Below are positions 6,918-62,610 of a stretch of DNA of 64,000 nt, piece by piece. Below the pieces are notes generated by a model. It saw nothing but the letters and a program-made list of their open reading frames with translations. It did not search any database and had not been told where the DNA came from. Location: NCBI RefSeq assembly GCF_016097555.1, contig NC_054706.1:59289921-59353920 (forward strand), given 5' to 3'. This DNA is from Gigantopelta aegis (Eukaryota > Mollusca > Gastropoda > Neomphalida > Peltospiridae). Each line of letters opens with the position of its first letter. Positions within the stretch are counted from its first letter, which is position 1. Both the position numbers and the translations under genes were made by a program.

Positions 6918-7240
6918 ATGAAGGAAATGTTTTATTTAACGACGCACTCAACACATTTTATTTACGGTTATATGGCGTCAGACATGTGGTTAAGGACCAC
7001 AGATATATTGAGAGGAAACCCGCTGACGCCACTTCATGGGCTACTCTTTTCGATTAGCAGCAAGGGATCTTTTACATGCACCATCCCACAAACAGGATAG
7101 CACATACCACGGCCGTTGATGTATCAGTCGTGGTGCACTGGATGGAGCGAGAAATAGCCCAATGGGCCCACTGACGGGGATCGATCCCTGACCAACCGCG
7201 CATCAAGCGAACGTTTTACCACTGGGCTACGTCCCGCCCC
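6918..7240 (-). mobile_element. SINE family A copy, full length
   Basis: The tail TTTATTTAACGACGCACTCA lies at the left and the head, ending CCACTGGGCTACGTCCCGCC, at the right. The body is complete, with AGCAGCAAGGGATCTTTTAC and GGGGATCGATCCC. A second, truncated copy in the same orientation abuts it at 7241. Confidence 0.9.
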
Positions 7241-11411: not shown

Positions 11412-13299
11412 TCAATCCTTTTCACCAACAGAATGATCAGATTTGGCTGGTGAACGAGATCTGGAATGTCCACGGTCGCTTCCTTTGCTCTGGCTTCGAC
11501 TGCGGGATCTGCTCTGGCTCTTTGGGGACCTACTTCGGCTTCTGCTGTACGATCGACTTCTCCTTGATCTACTATCTGAACGTCGTCTGCGATCTCCTCG
11601 TCGGTCTCTGGATCTTGACCTCGACCTGCTTCTAATCAAAATAAAGAAGTAGATTCAGCGAAGAAAAGAAAAAGGGTACTTGTAACAAATCTTAGGACTT
11701 AAAAAAAAAAAAAAAGTAATTAAAATTCAGCAGAGCCACAAAGATATTACCATATTAATTTACATGCGGAGCTAAAAATTACTCTCCTTCAAAAAATTCA
11801 GTATTGATAGCTCCCCTTAAACAGTGAAATGTATCAAAATATCGAGAGAAAAAAACGTGTAAATGGTATTGATGATGATCACATGGGTTTGATGTCTTGT
11901 AAAAAAAATTCTTCAAAAACATGCTGGACATTATTAAAAGTGCATTCCCCAATTAATATGTTGTGCTGTTATACACAAAACTCACAGGAAGCGATTTATT
12001 AACAGGAAATGAAAACAAGTCAGCTTCCCGGGTTTTTTAAGAATTGTTTTTTCTAAAGGGATTATACTTTCGAATTGAAAGGTGTTTCTTGGCAAGTATT
12101 TTCGTTTGACAACAATGGCGACACATCACAGTAATTTTTAGGGATCAATAGCAGATTGTGATAGCTAATTTCATAATAAATTTGATAGATTTACCAACAG
12201 AAATCGCCAAATATTAGGATATGAACAGTAGTTTATTCAATGATGCAACACTATTTATGGTTATATGGTGTCCGACCAAACATATTGAGGCCGGAAACCC
12301 ACTGTCGCCACTTCCTGGGTTACTCTCTTCTATTAGCAGCAAAGGATAGTTTATATGCACCACCCCATAGACAGGATAGCACATACCACAGCCTTTGATA
12401 CACTGGCTGAAGCAAGAAATAGCCCAAAGGGCCCACTAACGGGGATCGATCCCAAACAGACTGTGCATTGAGCAAGCACTTTACCACTGGACTACGTCTC
12501 ACGGATATTTTTCTTCTTATATCAAACCAAATTGAAATTATTTACAAAAAAAAAAAACCCAGGATGGGATGTAATATTGACCAATAATAAAATAAATTTT
12601 ACACCCATAAAAAAAAAAAGGTACCACTGAATAAAAATTGCCCGATCCTACTTCTCCAAAGTTATAAAAAAAAAAAAAAAAAGTTGCAAAACCTATTTTG
12701 ATTATGGTGGTCACGTCAATTTTAGAAGTCATTAACAAAATTCACCCGGCATTCCTGTGGCAAAAACATCTATCAACCTCCCCAAGTAGTAAATTGAGAC
12801 GATATGGTGTTCAAAGATAGATATGCAGGCAGGGATCACTATGTAACAAACTTTACAAAGTAATACTTCTCACTAAAAAATCGCACTTTAAACAAAGGCG
12901 ACCCTCTTCACCCGCTCTAAAAAAAATGGAACACAAAAACACGTACCTGCGATCTCTATTATTTCGACTGTACCCTCCTCCATACCGTCTCGGTGGGCCA
13001 CCGCGTCGTGTGTCTGGTCTTCCGTACCGTGCTGTCTGCACTCTCAGTTCGCGGCCGTCAAAGATGGCACCATCCATGGAATCCATTGCGTCTTCGGCAT
13101 CCCTCTTGTCGTAAAATCGGACAAAGGCAAAACCCCTACTTTCGCGTGTAAAGCGATCGCGTGGGATATAAACATCTCCAACATCGCCATACTTTTCAAA
13201 TGCCCTTTTTAAATTTTCTGGTGTGGTTCTATAGGTGAGATTATCCACTTTGAGGGAAATCATTCCCTCAGAATTTGGAGGACCTCTTCCGTAACTCAT
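11412..13299 (-). CDS. SRSF2: Serine/arginine-rich splicing factor 2 (SC35-like)
   Basis: Two coding exons: 13299-12947 and 11631-11412, joined at CGCAG/GTACGT and TTGATTAG/A, giving 190 residues. Residues about 14-90 are an RRM: the RNP2-like stretch [12 protein letters not shown] and the RNP1 octamer RGFAFVRF are intact. A short RGG/RY hinge ([18 protein letters not shown]) follows. Exon 2 encodes the RS domain, alternating Arg-Ser and ending SDHSVGEKD. Human SRSF2 is 221 residues, so the RS tail here is shorter. The family binds exonic enhancers, recruits U1 and U2AF, and acts in nuclear speckles after phosphorylation of the RS domain. The ATG is the first in frame, and the peptide MSYGRGPP is typical. 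The intron (11632-12946) holds a SINE A copy. The first exon lies next to a GGCCATTTTT motif (minus) just upstream. Family certainty is high; SRSF2 against close paralogues is slightly less sure. Confidence 0.95.
12215..12500 (-). mobile_element. SINE family A copy in the SRSF2 intron
   Basis: Diverged copy with a TTTATGGTTATATGGTGTCC tail section, the AGCAGCAAAGGATAGTTTAT body, GGGGATCGATCCC and the head end TTTACCACTGGACTACGTC. It is more diverged than the copies near 7 kb, so probably older. Confidence 0.85.
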
Positions 13300-13469
13300 C
13301 TTGCAGCGTACAGAGAATACTAAAAAATGGCCGATTTCTTCTCCGACGTGGTGAACAAAGCGCCCTCTATCGTCAATATGTCAACCAATCAAATGGCACC
13401 TTCTGACTCAGGGTCTAAGCGCCCTCTCTTGTCAAAATGTAAACCAATCAAAATGTACTCTAACACATT

Positions 13470-37200: not shown

Positions 37201-40200
37201 TCAGAGAACAAGATTGCTAGATAACAGTGAACTGCTAGAACGTTCGTCTCGGAATCTAGAGCACGGGTATAGGGCAGCAGTGGAAACAGGTATAATCTTG
37301 ACACAGTTAGTCAGCTCCTTTAAAATATATCGGGGGCAGATAAATTTTATCAGACTCAAACAGTTTAGTTTTACTTTTTAATAGATGTTTCCCAAAGGCT
37401 CCACCAACCAGTGCCCCATAACTGGTATATCAAATACTGTGGTATGTACTGCCCTGTTTATGGGAAAGGGTATGTAAGAGATCCCTTGCTGCTTTATCAG
37501 TAAGAGTAGCCAGTATGGTAGTAGTGGGTTTTCTCTCAATCGAACAAATGTCAAAATAACCATATATGTGACCGTCTATGGGAAAACCCGGCCAAAGTCG
37601 CCAATAGGAATTCGCACACAATGCCATTTTAAGTAATTAACACAAAAATAGTCCCTTTTTTTTAATCAAATAAATAATACAAAACATTATCTTTTCTTTC
37701 TGTTTGCGAAAAATATAAGGGCTACGAACATTCTGAAAGGCTTAAAACAAGTTTGTTTGTAGTCATTATCACTAATTAGTAATCAGAATTTCGCTAAAAC
37801 AAAGGTAGAAAATGTATTTTGTTTTATTGTTTTCTTCACCAAGATTGCGCATGTATACTACTTAATTTGGCATGCTTCGGTTCAAGAACTATTTGGTTAC
37901 CACAAAATTACGATACAGGTGTATTACTACATCGCTGTGACATGCTTTTCAATGTTTTAACATCACACTGAACTTTGCCATTTTTGGTTTGCGACTTTGG
38001 CCGGGTGAATGTTATGGTTACAAGTTTCGATGATACGACACGATATTACTTGATTCAACGATATACTATAAAGGATTCATCAAATATTAATTGTAATGAA
38101 CAGTTTTAAACAAAATGCTAGTAGTTTTTCGATGTGAAATATTGTTTTTGTCGGAATTAGATGTGACCCAGAAATGACAAAAATATTGGTGAAACAAAGA
38201 TGGCGTCGCGAAAAAACAATGCCGAAGTTGCCCATTACTTAAACCAGATAAAGGCGCTAAATTTGCAGGGAATTGACACAGAGGATGCCTTGACTACTTT
38301 GGTGGAAGAATACTTCATAGGCCAAGAAAATGACTCAGAAGGAATTTCATCTGATGACGAATTATTTTCCGGTAAGCTGTTTATTTTTAGAGTAGGCAAT
38401 CCTGTCTGTCCATGAACCGTGGCATTAACGGGATATGGCTTCTATGCACACGCATTGTAATAGCACGGTCAATTTGAAGTATTAATAGTTTACCTTATTC
38501 AATTTACTACAGAAATCGAGCAATAGAATGTATAAAACCTTACCAGTTTAATTTGTACATAGATGAAATATGCACAGTCGAATGTTGACATTTTTAAGGG
38601 TACCCCTAAAACCGTGGCATTTTTTTTTACAACAGTGATGTGTGGCAAATGACTTCATCAAAACTATCTCTGCCGTAAACTCATGCTTATCTAGGTTTGT
38701 TTAGCATGTTATTCATCAATTAATATAGTGACCTGAACTATCGAATAGTGCCCCCTTTCAAAACTCACCAAATTTCAATTTGGCATTATTTTAAAATAAA
38801 GAACATAAACACAGATTTTGTGTTTAGCAAACATTCATTTGTTTCGCCGACGGCACATAATTTGGAAATACTGCGTGCCTTTGCCATGTAGGACGCTTTT
38901 CGATCAAGTTTGTATCCATAACATTTGTTTAGTTTTTTATTTGGAAGTTTTGTTCAATCAAAGATAAAGTATTCCGATTTAAACCATTTCAAGGTTCAAA
39001 CGTGCAGATTGGCTAAAGACGAGCCGAATGTAAATACCCACGGTTCACGGTTTTGCACGGAAAATTCCGACACTGCGATCGTGTTTATACAAAAACACTA
39101 TCAATGTTGATCAGCAAGTACGTCATGTTCAGATTACTGTGATATTTTATAGTCTACGGTGTATTTGCTAAGTATAAGATTTTGTAATAATATGCCATAG
39201 CATGCATAAATATTAGTTTGTATGTATTTTACAATAATAAGTGTAAACCCATGGCTAATGTTTCTGTTTTATTATAAAAAAAATTCTTCACTGCTTGCAT
39301 TCTCTGTGTTACTGTAAAGCATGGCAGGTCCCGGACATTATTTTACAAGGAGAGGACCAATGTTAAAATGGCACATAAGCCAACATTCCCAATTACAAAA
39401 AAGTAATTGGAATTTGTTTAGTTGGGGGGGGGGGGGTCAGGTCACTGGGATCAGTCTTTGGTAAAGTTTACGGAATGACTTTCGCCCACTCCCTTACCTG
39501 CATATCGTATTTACGTTACAATGTAAGGGTTGCAGACGTTTCGTCCCCCAGTCAGATCGCCCCAATGTGTTTGTTCGCCCCCGGTTATTTGTTAGTTCGC
39601 CCCCCTTTTATACAAGTGTTGTCAGTTAATAAAGCTGATAAATATTATTGGAGTGTGCACTGTTGTAGAATGACTGCTTCCATGTTATGTTAGCACAAAA
39701 TAGTTTATTATTGTCTCTTTTTCGACAAAATTGGAAGACGGGATAAAAGCGACATTATTTTTAAAATAACATGTAACACAAAAACCTGCTTGTGAATTTG
39801 GTTATTGGAAAGCCAGATTGTGCATTTTCAGAGGCATTTTCCGCCTGTCAATTTCGAGCCTTGTCGAATTTAATACCTGAAAGGAAAATTACATATAACA
39901 TCTTTGACTGACCTACATTCAAGATGTGAATTATAAAGCCTAATGTCAATATTACAAATGGTGTTGAGGCAAAGTTACAAATATGTTGAGGTGAACCGAC
40001 ATGTGGGGCGAACTTCCTTGGCTTTGGGGGAAAACATCTGGTACCCCTGAATAATCTAGAATCTATTAAAAATGTAGTTATGATTTAACTCGACTTAGGA
40101 CACAATACATGTATGTATTAATGGAAAGAAGTGATTGTAGCTTTAATGATAATAAGCACCTCCTACTTTTTAATTGTTTTAGATGAAGATGGAAAAGATG

Positions 40201-43200
40201 AAGGGGAATTCACTTTCATTGAACCCGTGTTGGACATTGCATGTAATGCAGAAAAAGAGAATGAAGAGATATTTAGCCCCAATGCTGGTAAAGTGGATAA
40301 AAAGCTTTCAGGACATTTTGTTTGCAAATGCAAATTACAAAATGGTGGACCATGCTCAAAGCATTTTGACCAGCAGAAACTAATTGATAATCGCACAGAC
40401 CATCTAGCCATGGATTCGAAGGATTTGGATATGTGCATCTTAAGCCAGATTTCTGCCCACATCCATTGAGGCGAGACTACTGCCAAGTCCAAGCGGCAAG
40501 TTCAAACATTACGCACTAAATCAAGGATGGATTACATGTTAGAATCAAAAAAGATTTGTCGTGATACTTTCATGTTCATACATGCAGTTTTCAAAGACCG
40601 GCTGTGTTCACTCACTCGGTATTATTTGGAAAATGGACTCACTGCACGCACACATGGCAATTCATGTAAAACTCCCCAAAATGCTTTTTGTATTGATGAC
40701 ATTCAGAGGGTTGTGACATTTGTTAAAAATTTTGCTGAACAGAATGCCATTTTGCTTCCGGGTAGAATACCAGGTTACAAACGTGATGATTTGAAACTAC
40801 TGCCATCATCTGTTAGCAAAGCAACAATACATCGCCTGTACGAAGAATCATGCTCAAGTTTCGGAGTTCGGGTGGTAGGAATCAAATCCTTCTATGTGTT
40901 TTGGAAGCAGTATGTTCCGAACATTTTACCAATGAAACCCATGTCAGACTTGTGCTGGACATGCCAGAAAAACAGCAATCTTTTAATTAAAGCTGCAAAT
41001 CTGCCATTAGAGTTGAAGACTGCTGCTGTAAAATCTGCTGAGGAACATCTCTTCCGAGCCACCCAGGAGCGATCACTCTATACAAGTAAAGTGAAAAGCT
41101 GTAAAGATGTCTTCACAATGGAGGGCATCACAGATCTGGAAGCTCCTGGAAATGTCGTTGCTGATTGTTCTCGCACATTCGAGGTATGTATAGTGAGATC
41201 ATTTTAAGATAATATAATTTTTTAATGTTCACCTGATGAGCAAGGTCACCAGTTAGGGCCTCAATTTCACCAAATCAATTTGGATTGGTGATAAATGTAG
41301 GGTTTTTTGTGAGGTGGAATTATGTGCCTCGTTCAGTTTTCAACCAGTGATTAATAAATGTGTCACCATTTTGCAATCTGCTCCAGTGCAACTACTTTAT
41401 GTTAAGAAATAATTATAACCAAAAAAACTTTATTCAGTCATTTGGTATCATTAGGGTGATTTTAAAATACTGGTGCATTAATGTAATTATTTTTCTTCCT
41501 GTCCTCTCCATACCACCACCACCACCCCACCCCCCACCCCCCTTTTCTTTTATGATTATTGGAAAATTGGTTTATAGATACTTGTGATTTTAGTTTCAAA
41601 ACACTGGTATAGTATTTTACGGTGTGTATTTTTAATATAAATTGAATTACTGAACTAGTACATAATTATTTATTTTGTATTTGTCTCTTTCAGGCACACT
41701 ACAGCTTTGATTTTGCTCAACAGATCCACTATCCATACAACCCCATGCAGCCCGGACCAATTTTTTTCAAAACCCCTAGGAAAATTGGTGTTTTTGGGAT
41801 GATGACAGAAGGACTGGCCAAAATGGTACTCTTTCTTTTGGATGAGGCATCGTCAACAGGTAAAGGGGCAAACTGTGTCATCAGCCTTCTGAATTTCTTT
41901 TTCGAGAATTATGGATTGAAAGAAACAGTGTGCCACTTACATGCCGACAACTGTTCAGGCCAAAATAAAAATAATGCAATGATGCATTATCTAGCTTGGC
42001 GGGTGATTACGGGAAAGCACAAGAAGATTACTTTGTCCTTCCTTCTTGCCGGCCATACCAAGTTCGGCCCAGATTGGTGTTTTGGACTGTTTAAGAAAAA
42101 ACTAAAGTCATCGAAAGTGGATTGTTTAAAGGATGTTAAAACTGTGGCCAAACAGTCATCCCCAGCAGGCATCATTGTTCCACAGCTGTGCGGCGATGAA
42201 GGTGGTCGAGTGTTTACTCCAATGTACTCTTGGGACTCTTTCTTCTTTCCTGGCATATTTAGAAAAATGCCTGCCATAAAAAACATACACCACGTGGAGT
42301 TTTACCCCGATGGGAGAATTTTGTGCAAAGACTTTGCTGATAGTGAGACGGTGGAGCATAACATTTTAAAAGTTCAGCCATCCGAAGTACCGCGTGAACT
42401 ACCACCCCAAATATTTCCATCTGGACTGTCTGTTGATCGGAAAAACTATCTGTTTAAGGAAATTCGCCCTTTTGTGGCAGAACAATTTCAGGATCTAGTG
42501 TGCCCTAGACCTAGAACGGACATGGATGAGGCAGTGCGTGGCCCTGGTCGTCGTCTCAAAAAAGCAAAGGGACTTGCTGCTAGGAAATGAATATTCTGAC
42601 ACTCGATGACTGCGAAAACTATTCATTTTATTTTGTATATATGTTTTAAGACGTAATATAGTGTTAATATAAAATAATTTTGCCAACCCTGTGTTATAGT
42701 TATTTTTATAGCAGACAGAATAAGCTTTCTTTTGGTATATTACAATATCTTGTAACAATTCTGGATTTTGAAATATGTGCTTTACAAGTTCATCTATCTT
42801 TAGATAATAAATTCTCAAAATGGCCGCTTTCGGATCCTTGGAGATATGGGGTCTTTAAAATGTAATATTTCTTTTATTATTAAAGGCCGAATAAAATCCT
42901 TTGGCCAGTACATTACTAACATAATACTAATGGGAAAAACATAAAAATAATAGTTTTTAATTTTTTGTACTTTGGCTGGGTTTTTGCATAGACGGTCACA
43001 TATTAGACCTTACAAAGGCGTAGGTTAAAATGTGCTATGTGTAGTTAAACAAATATTCCTTTCCTTTCCAAAGGCTGCATTGAGGGTAATGTATCTTGTG
43101 ATCCATTGAATCGCAGGAGAAAGCTCTACAACAGAGTTGCACTGGTTTCTGGTGCTTAGTTTTGTGATGAAACAATGAGAAAATTATATAATAGAAATCA

Positions 43201-46200
43201 TTTACTCTTTTTTTTTTTGTAGAACAAATGGGAGCTCAAATAATGGATGATCTTCACAAGCAGAGACAGACAATAGGCCGATCAAGAAACCGGGTAAGAT
43301 AGCTGGAGTAAAAACACATATATCTATATCTATATACTGTAGATCAACAAATTAACGGGTCACTAAATTGATGCGAGTAATGCGGGTCAGACTAAAATGT
43401 GACTTAAGTATTAATGTGAGTGGCCTCCCTTGAAATATTAGTTTTGTAGCAACGTATGTTTGCATACCCTTTAGTTATTTCTGAGGTAGAAACATCTTCA
43501 GTGAAATCCACATTCTAATGATAACATAACATATTTGTGTACCCATCAACATAATTTCGAAGTGATAAATGAATGAACAATTCACAAAAGTGGTATGCAG
43601 TCAGTATTGCAAACAATCTAAACAATAAAAACAAACAAATAGTCACCCTTTAGATTAGTGTACTGATACCCATTCATGCGTGGTGGATCTTATCGGCTTG
43701 TGACATGGTGGCGAAAGAGACTGCAACCATCCCACTTGGCTGGCAGCTTGCTGAATTACTAATTCAGTAATTAGACTTTTGTTACATACCTAATATGTTA
43801 ATGTGAATAACAGTTGTTTAGCATTAAAATCATTATCGCATTAATTTCAGGATCTACAGTATTTCTTCTTGTCGAGTTGTTAATCTTTTGGAGTGGGTGT
43901 GAATCAAACAATGATTAATGAATGAATGAATGTTTAACAACACTCCAGCACGAAAAATACATCGGCTATTGGGTGTCAAACTATTGTAATGCAAACAAAT
44001 AAAGTGATGATCAACATTAATATAAAAATTCACGAGTCAAATAAAACTGTAAAGAACTGTGCAAAAATACAAATATCACAGATAGATCAAATTAAAATTT
44101 AAGTAAAAGTCCGTATCACGTAAAAATTGTAAAACTAGTTCTGGATGGAATCAAAATGAGGACAAAGTAAATTATTTTTAAAAATCTTGGGAGAAGAAAA
44201 CTATTATCTTTTTAGGTTTTTTACTTGACAGCTGAAATAGGGGCAGGATTTAGCTCAGTCGGTAGGGTGGGTGCGGGACGTAGCTCAGTGGTACAGTGCT
44301 CGCCTGATACACTATCGATCTAGGATCAATTCCCACCGGTGGGACCATTGGGCTGTTTTTCATTCCAGCCAGTGCTCCACAACTGGTGTAACAAGGGCTG
44401 TGGTATGTACTATTCTGTCTGTGGGATGGTGCATATAAAATATCCCATGCTGCTAATCGAAAAGAGTAGCCCATGAAGTGGTGACAGCAGATTTCCTCTC
44501 TCAATATCTGTGTGGTCCTCAACCATAAGTTCAACGCCATATAACCGTAAATAAAATGTGTTGAGTGCATTGTTAAATAAAACATTTCCTCATTTGGTAG
44601 AGGGCTCACCTGAGATGCTTTGTAAGCAGGATTTAAACTCAGGCAACTTTGTTAGCAGGATTTACCCACAGGCATTCAGGTCCTGGTTAGTGTTTCTAGG
44701 TGTACGAGTAGTACCAGTAGATTGAATCATATATGTTCTTATTTTCAGCTGGAAGAGATGAACACTAACCTGGGTAAGAGTTCCAGAGTACTCTCAGGAA
44801 TGATGAAACGGTATGTTTTCTTAAAAGTGTGTCAGAGTTTAAGCTGGACACAAAACACTTTTCTTTTTTTTTTTGTAATTTGGTGAATTTGGTCAGAAAA
44901 TATGTGGCCAAATTTAAATTTGAATTAGCTACCGGTGCCCCATGACTAGTTTATTGAAGGTCATGGTATGTGCTGTCTTATCTGAGTAAATGTTTATAAA
45001 AAAATATCTCTTGCTACCAATGGAAAAATGTAGTGGGTTTCTTATGAAGACTATATAATAATTATCATATGATTGACATTCATTAATCAATGTTTTCTAG
45101 CGGTGTTGTTAAACAAAATTGTTTGGGGGTATTTCAAATTAGCTGTTTAGTAAAAATTACACATATGGCAATAACATTTTTTCATTCACTTACTGAATCC
45201 AGTGGATTCTGAGTTATATTGTCATCAGTATGGCAGTGTTAGAAACTGTAAAAAACCCACACAAGAATTATAACCACACACACACCCCCACCCCCACCCC
45301 CCACCAAAAAAAAAGGTGTCCTTGGTCTGAATAAAAGATTTAACAAAGTCAATATTTTGCTTTTAAATGTTACATATAACTATATTAAGATGAACAATTT
45401 TTTTACTTTGTAACTTTCTTTATATGAGATTGCCTTTAAGAAACATAAAGCTGAAATAAAAATAATAAAAATCCTTTTCTTTACAAAATATTTACATATT
45501 CTGACTGGCTTTGTTTTAAAACTGTGCACCTTTTAAACATCTACAGAATGAAAGTTGTTGCTGTAAATATAAGTGTCAAAAACCAGTATAAAATATGTCA
45601 TCATATGATTTACATCTGTAGTATTTATTTTGGTCTTCATTCAGAGGGGCGAGATGTAGCCCAGTGGCAAAGCATTCGCTTAATGCGAGGTCGGTCTGGG
45701 ATCGATCCCTGTCAGTGCGCCCATTGGGCTATTTCTCGTTCTAGCCAGTGCACTGTGACTGGTACATCAAAGGCTGTGGTATGTGCTATCCTGTCTGTGG
45801 GATGGTGCATATAAAAGATCCCTTGCTGCTAATCGAAAAGAGTAGTCCCTGAAGTGGCGACAGCGGGTTTTCTCTCTAAATATCTGTGTGGTCCTTAACC
45901 ATATGCCCGACACCATATAACCATAAATAAAATGTGTTGAGTGCGTCATTAAATAAACCATTTCCTTCCTTCTTTATTGAATGCCATATGTCCGACGCCA
46001 TATAACAGTAAATAAAATGTGTTGAGTGCGTCGTTAAATCAAACATTTCCTTCCTTCTTTATTGAATGCTATATGTCCGACGCCATATAACAGTAAATAA
46101 AATGTGTTGAGTGCGTCATTAAATAAACCATTTCCTTCCTTCTTTATTGAATGCCATATGTCCGACGCCATATAACAGTAAATAAAATGTGTTGAGTGCG

Positions 46201-46926
46201 TCATTAAATAAACCATTTCCTTCCTTCTTTATTGAATGCCATATGTCCGACGCCATATAACAGTAAATAAAATGTGTTGAGTGCGTCGTTAAATCAAACA
46301 TTTCCTTCCTTCTTTATTGAATGCTATATGTCCGACGCCATATAACAGTAAATAAAATGTGTTGAGTGCGTCATTAAATAAACCATTTCCTTCCTTCTTT
46401 ATTGAATGCCATATGTCCGACGCCATATAACAGTAAATAAAATGTGTTGAGTGCGTCGTTAAATCAAACATTTCCTTCCTTCTTTATTGAATGCTATATG
46501 TCCGACGCCATATAACAGTAAATAAAATGTGTTGAGTGCGTCATTAAATAAACCATTTCCTTCCTTCTTTATTGAATGCCATATGTCCGACGCCATATAA
46601 CAGTAAATAAAATGTGTTGAGTGCGTCGTTAAATCAAACATTTCCTTCCTTCTTTATTGAATGCCATATGTCTGACGCCATATAACAGTAAATACAATGT
46701 GTTGAGTGCGTCGTTAAATCAAACATTTCCTTCCTTCTTTATTGAATGCCATATGTCCGACGCCATATAACAGTAAATAAAATGTGTTGAGTGCGTCGTT
46801 AAATCAAACATTTCCTTCCTTCATTTCAGAATAATCCAGAACCGAGTTCTAATGTTGGGAATCGTCCTGATCTTACTCATTGTGATATCACTTGCAATAT
46901 ATTTCACCGTGAAGAAGCATTCTTGA
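31291..46926 (+). CDS. VTI1A: Vesicle transport v-SNARE VTI1A (Qb-SNARE)
   Basis: Eight exons: 31291-31384, 33721-33779, 34259-34369, 35985-36059, 37205-37289, 43223-43293, 44749-44810, 46830-46926. They total 654 nt, or 217 residues, equal to human VTI1A. All introns are GT-AG with matching phases. Residues 1-90 correspond to the N-terminal three-helix domain and include LEQMDLEVQELEARDRQKYT. Residues about 120-185 are the SNARE motif (LLDNSELLERSSRNLEHGYR...TEQMGAQIMDDL...LGKSSRVLSGMMKR). The C-terminus is a single membrane anchor (IIQNRVLMLGIVLILLIVIS then LAIYFTVKKHS), as in tail-anchored SNAREs. The family acts in endosome-to-Golgi and intra-Golgi fusion with syntaxin 16/6 and VAMP4. Similarity to VTI1A is much stronger than to VTI1B. 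Introns 1, 3 and 5 carry DNA transposons, and intron 7 ends in a SINE-tail array. Confidence 0.97.
31812..32623. mobile_element. 812-bp TTAA-flanked MITE in VTI1A intron 1
   Basis: Left end AGCCGCACACCCTAGTT, right end the complement of AGGGACACACCCTAGTTACG. TTAA lies at 31808-31811 and 32624-32627. The inside holds short open frames only (for example 31887-32225 minus), none with a recognised domain. Confidence 0.8.
33905..34115 (+). mobile_element. SINE family B copy, head lost
   Basis: Runs from CAGTGCTCCACAACTGGTAT through CTATCCTGTCTATGGGATG, TTGACATCCAACAGCCGATG and TTGCTCTAATGATGTTG to TTAAACAAA. In VTI1A intron 2. Confidence 0.85.
34431..35444. mobile_element. 1.0-kb DNA element with 6-bp target duplication in VTI1A intron 3
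   Basis: Inverted ends CAGGGTGTGCACTT and, at the right, AAGTGCACACTCTG. ATTATA lies on both flanks (34425-34430, 35445-35450). Two open frames (34711-34962 and 34892-35209) show no recognisable domain. The terminal CAGRG and the 6-bp duplication match the element at 27473-28672. Confidence 0.82.
36541..36998 (+). mobile_element. SINE B inserted into a SINE A
   Basis: A family A copy starts at about 36541 (GCTATTTCTCTTTCCAGCCA). It is interrupted after CATTTGTCTGACGCCTAATG, and its tail resumes at about 36948 (ACAGTAAATTAAATG, GTGTCGTTAAGTAAAATATT). Between them, 36724-36943 is a family B copy with GGTCGGTCTAGGATCGATCC at its start and GTGGTGTTGTTAAACAAAGC at its end. In VTI1A intron 4. Confidence 0.8.
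38200..42590 (+). CDS. Transposase-like protein with RNase-H-type DDD pattern, one internal TGA
   Basis: Three exons: 38200-38371 (donor G/GTAAGC), 40183-41183 (donor GAG/GTATGT) and 41694-42590 (acceptor TTTCAG), totalling 689 codons plus stop with phases 1 and 0. The N-terminus is acidic (EDALTTLVEEY...SDDELFS). A Cys cluster follows (FVCKCKLQNGGPCSKHF), then a basic region, a helical stretch with NAILLPGRIPGYKRDDLKLL, and a D-x-C-x2-C motif (SDLCWTCQKN). The last exon has YSFDFAQQIHYPYNP, LHADNCSGQNKNNAMMHYLA and GHTKFGPDWCFGLFKKK. The Asp residues of FDFA, HADN and GPD are the likely catalytic ones. The C-terminus is basic. I recall this layout from animal proteins labelled DUF7869 or uncharacterised. 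An in-frame TGA at 40467-40469 lies in exon 2 (HIH-stop-GETTAKSKR), so this copy is probably inactive unless read through. Position inside 31-bp TIRs supports a transposase role. Confidence 0.8.
39532..40041. mobile_element. Possible MITE inside the transposase intron 1
   Basis: The left end GCAGACGTTTCGTCCCCCAG and the right end (read inward) CCAGATGTTTTCCCCCAAAG are imperfectly inverted. TTCGCCCC and GGGGCGAA repeats occur inside both ends. The flank duplication is unclear. Confidence 0.45.
44262..44595 (+). mobile_element. SINE family A copy inside another tRNA-like repeat
   Basis: Near full length, from GCGGGACGTAGCTCAGTGGT to TTGTTAAATAAAACATTTCC. It sits within GGATTTAGCTCAGTCGGTAG (before) and TTTGGTAGAGGGCTCACCTG (after), which together read as one tRNA-like head. 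The GGTAG-like piece is repeated on both sides as a target duplication. Confidence 0.85.
44930..45122 (+). mobile_element. SINE family B copy, diverged
   Basis: GGTGCCCCATGACTAGTTTA, ATGGTATGTGCTGTCTTATC, CTACCAATGGAAAAATGTAG and TCTAGCGGTGTTGTTAAAC mark it in order. In VTI1A intron 7. Confidence 0.75.
45645..45985 (+). mobile_element. SINE family A copy whose tail starts the 85-bp array
   Basis: The head is GAGATGTAGCCCAGTGGCAA with GGTCGGTCTGGGATCGATCC; the body is AAAAGATCCCTTGCTGCTAA; the tail is complete to CATTTCCTTCCTTC. It passes straight into the tandem array, of which its own tail is the first unit. Confidence 0.9.
45901..46820 (+). repeat. 85-bp minisatellite of the SINE tail, about 11 units
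   Basis: Units begin (ATATGTCCGACGCC) near 45986, 46071, 46156, 46241, 46326, 46411, 46496, 46581, 46666 and 46751, preceded by the parent SINE tail at 45901. Two unit types differ at CGTCATTAAATAAACCA against CGTCGTTAAATCAAACA and at GAATGCC against GAATGCT, and partly alternate. The last unit ends in ATTTCCTTCCTTC, nine bases before VTI1A exon 8. Confidence 0.95.
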
Positions 46927-61000: not shown

Positions 61001-62610
61001 TGCAAGTGGTTTACACCTACCCATTGAGCCTTGCGGAGCACTCACTCAGGGTTTGGAGTTGGTATTTGGATTAAAAATCCCATGCCTCGACTGGGATCCG
61101 AACCCTGTACCTACCAGCCTGTAGACCGATGGCCTACCACGATGCCACCGAGGCCGGTTTTTTGGATAAGAGTTTTTATTTTTTTTAAATATGTATTAAA
61201 TCATAATAATATTTAAACTTTAAAAAAATTTAATAATATTTTTTTATTTTTTTTAAATGCCAAGATCTAAGGTTAACAAGTATATCTGACATTATGTAGT
61301 GTTCATATAACTTATTGTAATATATATATATTTTTTTAATCTTGCGATTTTGGGTTAAACTGTTAATTTAAAAAACCTCCTGCTTTTTCAACACACACCT
61401 CCTGTTTTCTCTTGACTAAAGGTTGACAGGTCTGCCATGGTATGTGCTATCCTATCTGTGGGATGGTGCATATAAAAGATTCCTTGCTACTAATGGAACA
61501 ATGTAGCGGGTTTCCTCTCTAAGACTACATGTAAAAATTACCAAATATTTGACATCCAATAGCCGTTGATTTATATAAATCAATGTGCTCTAGTGGTGAC
61601 ATTAAACAAAACAAACTTTTTTTTCCTGGGTTTTTTCTTTTATGTGTTTGTTTTTGTTGATAAAATGGTACTGTACAAAGATAATAAAACATGGAGGTGT
61701 TTGTTTTTGTTTTTCGTTGATAAAATGGTACTGTACAAAGATATTAAAAAATGGAGGTGTTTGTTTTTGCTTTTTTGTTTTTTGTTGATAAAATGGTACT
61801 GTACAAAGATATTAAAACATGGAGGGGTTTGTTTTTGTTTTTCGTTGATAAAATGGTACTGTACAAAGATATTAAAAAATGGAGGTGTTTGTTTTTGCTT
61901 TTTTGTTTTTTGTTGATAAAATGGTACTGTACAAAGATATTAAAACATGGAGGGGTTTGTTTTTGCTTTTTTGTTTTTTGTTAATAAAATGGTACTGTAC
62001 AAAGATATTAAAACATGGAGATTCTTACCACTGGATCCTCTGGCTTCTGTTTGCAGAGATTCGTGAGACCCTTCAATAAAGTTGGGTTGACCGTCTTTGA
62101 CAGGTAGTCTACTGCAGCCACGCCAGTAGCAACAGGTTCTATCACACCTACAACAAAACAGTAATCGTTATCATGGTTCTGCCTAAAAAACAAAACCAAA
62201 ACCATGTTGTAACCTGTGCCCAAGACATACATGTGCTACAACAGCTTGAACACTAAACAAGCACATTACATCTTTTCCAAGTCCAGGTCTGAGCAGACCA
62301 TCATGAGCAGAACACTAGATCAAAGTTTGGGGTTTTATTAAAAATAATGGTTCAAATGTGACCAGCTCATAAAATTACTATTGTACATTTTTCTGTAAAA
62401 ATTCCTCCTTTTTTCTCCTGTTTTCAAGAACATTAAAATAGTGGGCCTAGCTGGGAGTTTTAAAGGGTTTTTTATTTTTATTAGTTAAATTAAACCATGC
62501 TAAACATACTGTTTGGGAAGAAGAATCTGATTTCTCTCTGTGCTGTTGAGAAACAGTCACTTCCATGCAGAGCATTTCTTTGGTCATCTGTTCCATAAAT
62601 TGCACGCAAA
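58053..62610 (-). CDS. NME5: NME5, C-terminal part (last three coding exons)
   Basis: Exons on minus: 62610-62510, 62147-62029 and 58133-58053, with matching phases (1, 0), giving the last 99 residues. They read LRAIYGTDDQRNALHGSDCF...REIRFFFPN, then SVIEPVATGVAAVDYLSKTV...LLKGLTNLCKQKPEDPV, then IWLADWLIENNPNKPRVAQM and IVEEPK. This matches the human NME5 end closely (NALHGS, REIRF, LCKQKP, WLADWL, NNPNKP, IVEEP). NALHGS holds the conserved active-site His region of the NDP-kinase fold. The following segment is the Dpy-30-like helical pair used for docking in axonemal complexes. NME5 is a radial-spoke-associated protein of motile cilia and sperm. Earlier exons are beyond 64000. The 3.9-kb intron before the last exon holds a nested repeat stack. 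Confidence 0.94.
58134..59648. other. NME5 intron, left half, no recognised gene
   Basis: AT-rich. A CTAGCTCTGGCACTCGCC segment at about 58929 and CCAGAGCTTGCCCTG at about 59111 may be the ends of a short element. The phrase CAATTGGTTACTTAGGTAAA near 59163 echoes ACCTAGGTAACCAATTG near 20030. Confidence 0.35.
59781..61434. mobile_element. DNA element with 14-bp inverted ends and 2-bp duplication
   Basis: Ends CAGACCTGTCAACC and GGTTGACAGGTCTG, exact inverse, flanked by CC (59779-59780, 61435-61436). Subterminal segments GGGAGTCTCCTG and CCTCCTGTTTTCTC look related. Short open frames inside have no domain. It carries a younger SINE C. Superfamily not assigned. Confidence 0.82.
60769..61158 (-). 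mobile_element. SINE family C copy with 11-bp target duplication
   Basis: Full length, flanked by TTTTTGGATAA (60758-60768, 61159-61169). The tail TTTATTTAACGACGCACTCA is at the left and the head ending CCACCGAGGCCGG at the right. Little diverged from the copy at 26804-27187, so young. Confidence 0.92.
61650..62020. repeat. Minisatellite beside an NME5 exon donor
   Basis: Six units of about 60 and 67 bp, each with GATAAAATGGTACTGTACAA and AGATATTAAAACATGGAGG, differing by GTTTTTGTTTTTC against GCTTTTTTGTTTTTT. The array ends eight bases from the donor of the exon 62147-62029. Confidence 0.9.

Follow-up and report, generated by a model that had tools for sequence, protein, structure and literature searches.

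Described transposons and the element in Gigantopelta aegis

Sola transposons are characterised, in the part of PMC10741241 that deals with them, by a DDD transposase, 4-bp target site duplications, ends of 11-1124 bp, a length of mostly 2-9 kb and an occurrence in both bacteria and metazoans, and the curated bivalve Sola1 elements have a mean length of 5,445 bp according to an excerpt of PMC10294476. The Sola2 duplications given in the corresponding passage of PMC3627910 are ATAT, AAAT and ATTT, written AWWT, and Kolobok and piggyBac elements duplicate TTAA as stated in a passage of PMC9587614. The locus considered here lies in a stretch of 64,000 nt of Gigantopelta aegis contig NC_054706.1 (GCF_016097555.1; 59,289,921-59,353,920 of the forward strand), hereafter the window, and is an element of 5,432 bp (37568-42999 of the window) that encloses a gene for a protein of the Pfam family PF25273, DUF7869, a family without assigned function. 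It is almost certain that this element is a transposon of the cut-and-paste type whose transposase is the DUF7869 protein. Taken as a whole it is, with good confidence, best explained as a lone copy, probably inactive, of an autonomous DNA transposon of this type that most likely belongs to Sola. Its features are the following:

37564-37567, no strand: ATAT, likely left target site duplication, judged by the comparison of boundaries and lengths over 12 elements
37568-37598, plus strand: left terminal inverted repeat, GTGACCGTCTATGGGAAAACCCGGCCAAAGT
37586-37604, plus strand: inner left-end arm, CCCGGCCAAAGTCGC, of a subterminal inverted repeat (19 nt, 95%)
37988-38006, minus strand: further occurrence of the CCCGGCCAAAGTCGC motif within the left end, in inverted orientation, partner of 37586-37604
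38200-38371, plus strand: exon 1, with the ATG at 38200
38372-40182, plus strand: intron 1
40183-41183, plus strand: exon 2, with a Cys-rich N-terminal part and an SDLCWTC motif
40467-40469, plus strand: in-frame TGA stop in exon 2, codon 153 in the reading of the spliced frame
41184-41693, plus strand: intron 2
41694-42590, plus strand: exon 3, with the DUF7869 domain, a predicted RNase-H-like catalytic domain (PF25273, conservation and structural model), and a C-terminal part
42969-42999, minus strand: right terminal inverted repeat
43000-43003, no strand: ATAT, likely right target site duplication, judged as on the left

Relatives of the gene and the ends of their elements

Relatives were found by scanning a GTDB-based collection of prokaryote contigs for the motif DNCxGQNKN, which yielded 12 loci, 11 of them encoding relatives; the remaining one, L004, was dropped as a chance pattern match without a related reading frame. 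Stop-to-stop frames of 635-668 codons are present in L001, L003, L005, L007, L008, L010 and L012, the frame of L011 is cut by the contig start and that of L009 is shortened by a stop, the gene of L006 is broken in two frames and that of L002 is broken up. All three bacterial proteins scanned with Pfam exceed the DUF7869 cut-off, and the cut-off is likewise exceeded in eight genomes searched by family, which had been chosen for holding these loci. The isolate Desulfocicer vacuolatum DSM 3385 is the source of L005, which is located near a sigma-54 regulator gene and integrase-core genes in a contig of 147,846 bases, and for these reasons we regard the locus as bacterial and not as contamination. 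L006 and L007 belong to Thiomargarita nelsonii, and most other relatives to metagenome bins. The family is rare among prokaryotes, with DUF7869 hits in 1 of 395, 6 of 291 and 5 of 291 (overlapping draws), 2 of 42, 2 of 369 (one above the cut-off), 1 of 235 and 1 of 6 genomes, each draw counting its centre genome. No relative was found in IMG/VR by protein, pattern or alignment, nor did tblastn searches of phages, with the exon of the window or L007 as query, or a search of plasmids with L007 return a match.

In eight of the loci (L001, L003, L005, L006, L007, L008, L010 and L012) the gene is enclosed by inverted repeats of 39-64 nt. When these are taken together with the window element, all 18 ends start with a G directly behind the flanking 4-mer. 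AAAA occupies +16 to +19 in 16 of 18, the exception being L003, where the AAAA of the right end lies one base earlier and the left end has AGAA, and 17 of the 18 flanks are AWWT, the other one being ATGT. It is this residence of the bacterial DUF7869 relatives inside small elements with comparable ends that marks the family as a transposase, and the DNA transposon with a DUF7869-like transposase proposed in the initial annotation of this DNA is thereby borne out. What is added here is that DUF7869 is the transposase of the element, and that enzyme, end layout and target are common to the window element and the bacterial ones. In addition, bin G437, the home of L011, contains one right end at three unrelated flanks (L051, L055 and L057), the sequences diverging shortly past CCCC, which further supports the earlier claim that the gene is the cargo of a mobile element. 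Two of the three contigs start with a shared, shortened stretch where the end is reached early after the coding sequence, from which we infer what may be a single copy with an internal deletion, present at two sites.

Short copies with exact 4-bp flank repeats were found as well, namely L047 (484 bp, AAAT), L048 (460 bp, AGTT) and L061 (71 bp, AAAT). All three were retrieved with patterns containing AAAA, two of them via a regular expression that also required A..T flanks, and being picked partly by these traits they lend no independent support to either, which counts against their use in this respect. With the three copies added, AAAA is found in 22 of 24 ends and AWWT in 21 of 24 flanks, with AGTT twice, ATGT once and TTAA never. 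The copy in L048 (1643-2102, non-autonomous) also holds an inner end, ATTT followed by GGGGTGTTATCTGAG at 1862, and gives the impression of one copy nested within another by insertion.

The window element, the eight gene-bearing loci and the three short copies constitute a set of 12 two-ended elements, from which L009 (stop-cut frame), L011 (left end off the contig), and L002 and L023 (second end not found) were left out. Identical left and right 4-mers are present in 7 of the 12, compared to a mean of 2.4 when the right 4-mers are shuffled, and as 7 was reached in 0.3% of the shuffles, P is ~0.003. Furthermore, when boundary shifts of -3 to +3 were combined with lengths of 2 to 9, the boundary of the initial annotation with length 4 obtained the top score, tied only with its inner two bases. 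Statistically, a 4-bp target site duplication has moderate and not strong support. Seven one-ended flanks, excluded from these statistics and read at the G, are ATAT four times and AATT once (AWWT in 5 of 7), the other two being GAAT and ATTC.

The DUF7869 domain and its predicted catalytic core

Exon 3 matches PF25273 with an E-value of 1.9e-15 and 57.4 bits, well above the curated cut-off of 26 bits, and the Pfam profile search that the initial annotation had proposed accordingly identifies it as DUF7869. Exon 2, scanned in two parts, gave no Pfam match, and no further Pfam domain was found in these two scanned exons. The motifs FDFA, HADNCSGQNKN and GHTKFGPD are, as annotated, all located in exon 3, and their aspartates have codons at 41709, 41946 and 42072, corresponding to D397, D476 and D518 of the spliced frame or D6, D85 and D127 of exon 3. 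Over 12 aligned sequences D85 and D127 are invariant and D6 nearly so, the sole sequence without it being L009, which starts later. The catalytic part is 39-44% identical to the window in eight bacterial proteins, 30% in L006 and 27% in L023, and exons 1 and 2 are 21-25% identical over 328-354 residues to seven full-length bacterial proteins and 16% to the divergent L023.

An AlphaFold2 model of exon 3 built with 12 sequences (L023 not included) has a mean pLDDT of 78.9 and a pTM of 0.80, with strands at 2-13, 29-38 and 43-50, a helix at 59-72, a strand at 79-85, a helix at 90-105, a strand at 111-117 and a helix at 130-138 in exon 3 numbering. In this model, which is of fair confidence, the order of elements is that of RNase H; D6 is found on the first strand, D85 ends the fourth strand and D127 comes just before the last core helix. 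The best 50 of 517 Foldseek matches in the PDB include the integrase core of HTLV-2 with a probability of 0.90, and also Argonautes, piggyBac, NurA, UvrC and RNase HI. A sequence search of the PDB gave no match for exon 3 alone and only three chance-level hits for a profile. Taken with the conserved aspartates, the model supports a predicted RNase-H-like DDD core in DUF7869.

In the mechanism that we propose, the Cys-rich N-terminal part of the transposase would bind the ends through the G..AAAAC block and perhaps through the inner CCCGGCCAAAG repeats, the RNase-H-like core would cut and join the DNA using D397, D476 and D518, and insertion at AWWT sites with a 4-bp stagger would give rise to the duplication. 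If DUF7869 is the catalytic part of a transposase, annotators would be able to re-label such proteins as transposase-derived, and the intronless bacterial versions, with ~640 residues in elements of ~2.1 kb, lend themselves more readily to testing than the spliced gene of the animal.

Observations that weigh against the proposed reading

Several observations speak against the reading set out above. Without the three short copies only 4 of 9 elements have identical 4-mers (shuffled mean 2.0, P ~0.10), in the bacterial gene-bearing elements alone the number is 3 of 8 (P ~0.19), and in 5 of the 12 two-ended elements (L003, L005, L007, L010 and L012) the 4-mers are unmatched. The ATAT of the window is moreover self-reverse-complementary and from the window alone indistinguishable from extended ends. 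The AlphaFold2 prediction from a single sequence is poor (pLDDT 34.2, pTM 0.22), the best 50 of 517 Foldseek matches also include the unrelated nocturnin, Tdp2 and acetyl-CoA carboxylase, no match in the PDB reached an E-value of 0.001 or below (best 0.052), and a search of a viral fold library gave nothing at E 0.001 (best 0.0025), with unrelated folds present. Finally, the window gene has an internal stop, the TGA of codon 153. Of the RNase-H DDD/E core claimed in the initial annotation, it can thus be said that the conservation of the aspartates and the order of elements in the model are in its favour, but that the fold matches stay below significance.

The five elements with unmatched 4-mers all retain A and T as outer bases, and it is possible that their mismatches stem from rearranged flanks or from mutation. 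The left side of the L005 element (at ~4578; 2066-2596 of L046) lies in a gene that carries an integrase-core (rve) domain and that we take to be of IS3 type, and no continuation of this gene was seen by eye in three frames on the right side. A rearranged flank is a plausible, not proven, reason for the lack of a duplication at L005.

Superfamily placement

Sola is the likely superfamily of the element, an assignment that is made by features and not by sequence comparison, and we hold it slightly less firmly than at first, given how weak the statistics for the duplication become once the three short copies are set aside. The Sola-like option of the initial annotation, raised there on account of the 4-bp duplication, fits in terms of the predicted DDD residues, the 4 bp, the size, the ends and the hosts. 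As far as the portions of PMC10741241, PMC10294476 and PMC3627910 referred to above go, the 5,432 bp of the window element are close to the mean of 5,445 bp for bivalve Sola1, the 4-bp duplication, the terminal inverted repeats and the presence in bacteria and metazoa are shared by Sola with the window element and its relatives, and the AWWT flanks, ATAT in the window, resemble those of Sola2. Sola1 and Sola2 are not distinguishable as subgroups for the window element. Sola3 elements have TTAA targets, which would not fit it. Kolobok and piggyBac are likewise DDD/E transposons with a 4-bp duplication, and the weak fold matches include a transposase of piggyBac, but they duplicate TTAA, which occurs in 0 of 24 flanks here, in contrast to AWWT.

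The exon 3 domain and the three scanned bacterial proteins all belong to PF25273 by its cut-off, but where Pfam gives the family no function we here interpret it as forming the catalytic part of a transposase. The bacterial elements (L005, L006, L007 and others) are in turn like the window element in catalytic part, in comparable end layout and in target; they differ in that the gene-bearing ones are 2.0-3.5 kb long and without introns, and in that their ends start with GG or GA as opposed to GT in the window.

The alternative that deserves most attention is that of a DNA transposon superfamily distinct from Sola, with a DUF7869 transposase, G..AAAA ends and AWWT duplications, found in bacteria and animals and unnamed in Repbase. 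This notion is in agreement with the outcome of a literature search, with a coverage lacking most subscription papers, in which no paper naming DUF7869 was found and the string GQNKN returned only titles off topic, as well as with NCBIfam, where no family is above the cut-off for the three proteins scanned and two chance-level hits concern bacterial proteins only and not the window. The published traits of Sola in the part of PMC10741241 cited already fit, however, and Sola2 is reported with duplications of ATAT, AAAT and ATTT in the passage of PMC3627910, and we accordingly consider a separate superfamily unlikely, if worth bearing in mind.

A possible link between bacteria and animals

L002, from the bin of a sponge symbiont, has AATT followed by GTGACCCTCCAAGGGAAAA beside a DUF7869 gene. 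When the window end GTGACCGTCTATGGGAAAACC is compared to GTGACCCTCCAAGGGAAAAGG of L002, 16 of 19 bases are identical for the left end and 14 of 19 for the right. Two places with at least 15 of 19 exist on the L002 contig, and, in 507,752 bases of loci, no other was found outside that contig and its copies L020 and L035, both strands being scanned and overlapping loci counted repeatedly. Another GTGACC..GGGAAAA end, oriented alike and with TTAT before it, is located at 3750 of L002, which suggests that a further copy begins there. Because its gene is broken up and its ends resemble those of the window, the L002 contig is taken to be sponge DNA, which is probable. In the alignment, L021, a second contig of the same bin, is missing the regions that surround D85 and D127, and it seems decayed.

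The window and L002 ends have their initial G and the equally spaced AAAA block in common with the bacterial ends. In a tree of 12 proteins (L009 and L021 excluded) the window and L002 group together with 97/94 and join the Nitrospirales and Bpl_7 proteins with 96/96, in a tree where both are flagged as long branches, the root is arbitrary and the direction of transfer is not readable. One could go further and regard DUF7869 as a transposase lineage separate from Sola1-3, in which the enzyme, the ends with G at +1 and AAAA at +16 to +19, and the AWWT target have been kept across bacteria and animals, the animal elements (the window and the probable sponge one) having come from within the bacterial diversity by inter-domain transfer, but we find this scenario improbable.

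The copy in the window

The spliced frame comprises 689 codons and a stop in three exons, the splice points being picked by eye and both introns being of the GT-AG type. The presence of introns shows the gene to be eukaryotic, and an animal origin would follow. The three exons and the codon number of the initial annotation hold, but the in-frame TGA at 40467-40469 had been overlooked. On account of this stop the 689-codon product is not makeable from the window copy as written, and the copy is probably disabled.

Alignment of 37568-37598 with 42969-42999 confirms the annotated 31-bp inverted ends, alike at 28 of 31 positions, and ATAT was correctly placed on each side; with ATAT included the inverted match (37564-37598 and 42969-43003) extends over 35 nt at 91%. 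The subterminal CCCGGCCAAAGTCGC repeat is a possible candidate for a transposase-binding repeat. Apart from the partner end, nothing else in the window matches the outermost 19 bases of the end at more than 14 of 19 positions. Inverted 31-nt matches with at least 27 pairs were present on 190 of the ~60,000 diagonals scanned, which are part of the diagonals of the window, and the 25 of these that were listed resemble, by eye, dispersed repeats and an 85-bp array. Since inverted pairs of such quality are not rare here, the ends alone are a moderate and not a decisive argument, and stronger support than they give is provided by the relatives, which share the gene and have comparable ends.

One could imagine on these grounds that a host gene, domesticated or ordinary, is placed by chance between a pair of inverted repeats, all the more as DUF7869 is uncharacterised and only a single copy was seen. 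This is made very improbable by the facts that the end layout matches that of bacterial elements with the same gene and that of the probable sponge end beside a DUF7869 gene, and that an internal stop is unexpected under selection. Hardly any weight is given to a TA-target, mariner-like element with TGTGACC ends and a 2-bp TA duplication, which would fit the window alone equally well if the end is taken to start at the T of ATAT, as the inner two bases of the relatives are often not TA (AAAT, ATTT, AATT and AGTT) and the scanned exons are without any other Pfam domain.

Other features of the window

Rfam at gathering scores gave nothing in the window. The minus strand at 12853-13380 holds a reading frame that matches the RNA recognition motif PF00076 (E 1.6e-22) and whose tail is, by eye, rich in arginine; it is probably a host splicing-factor gene. 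A tandem array with a period of 68 and ~5.8 copies is found at 61647-62020, and the 85-bp array mentioned above occupies 45899-46822 with 10.9 copies of the unit at 95%; inverted matches to this unit near 6934 and 7262 make it look like a tandemly amplified dispersed repeat.

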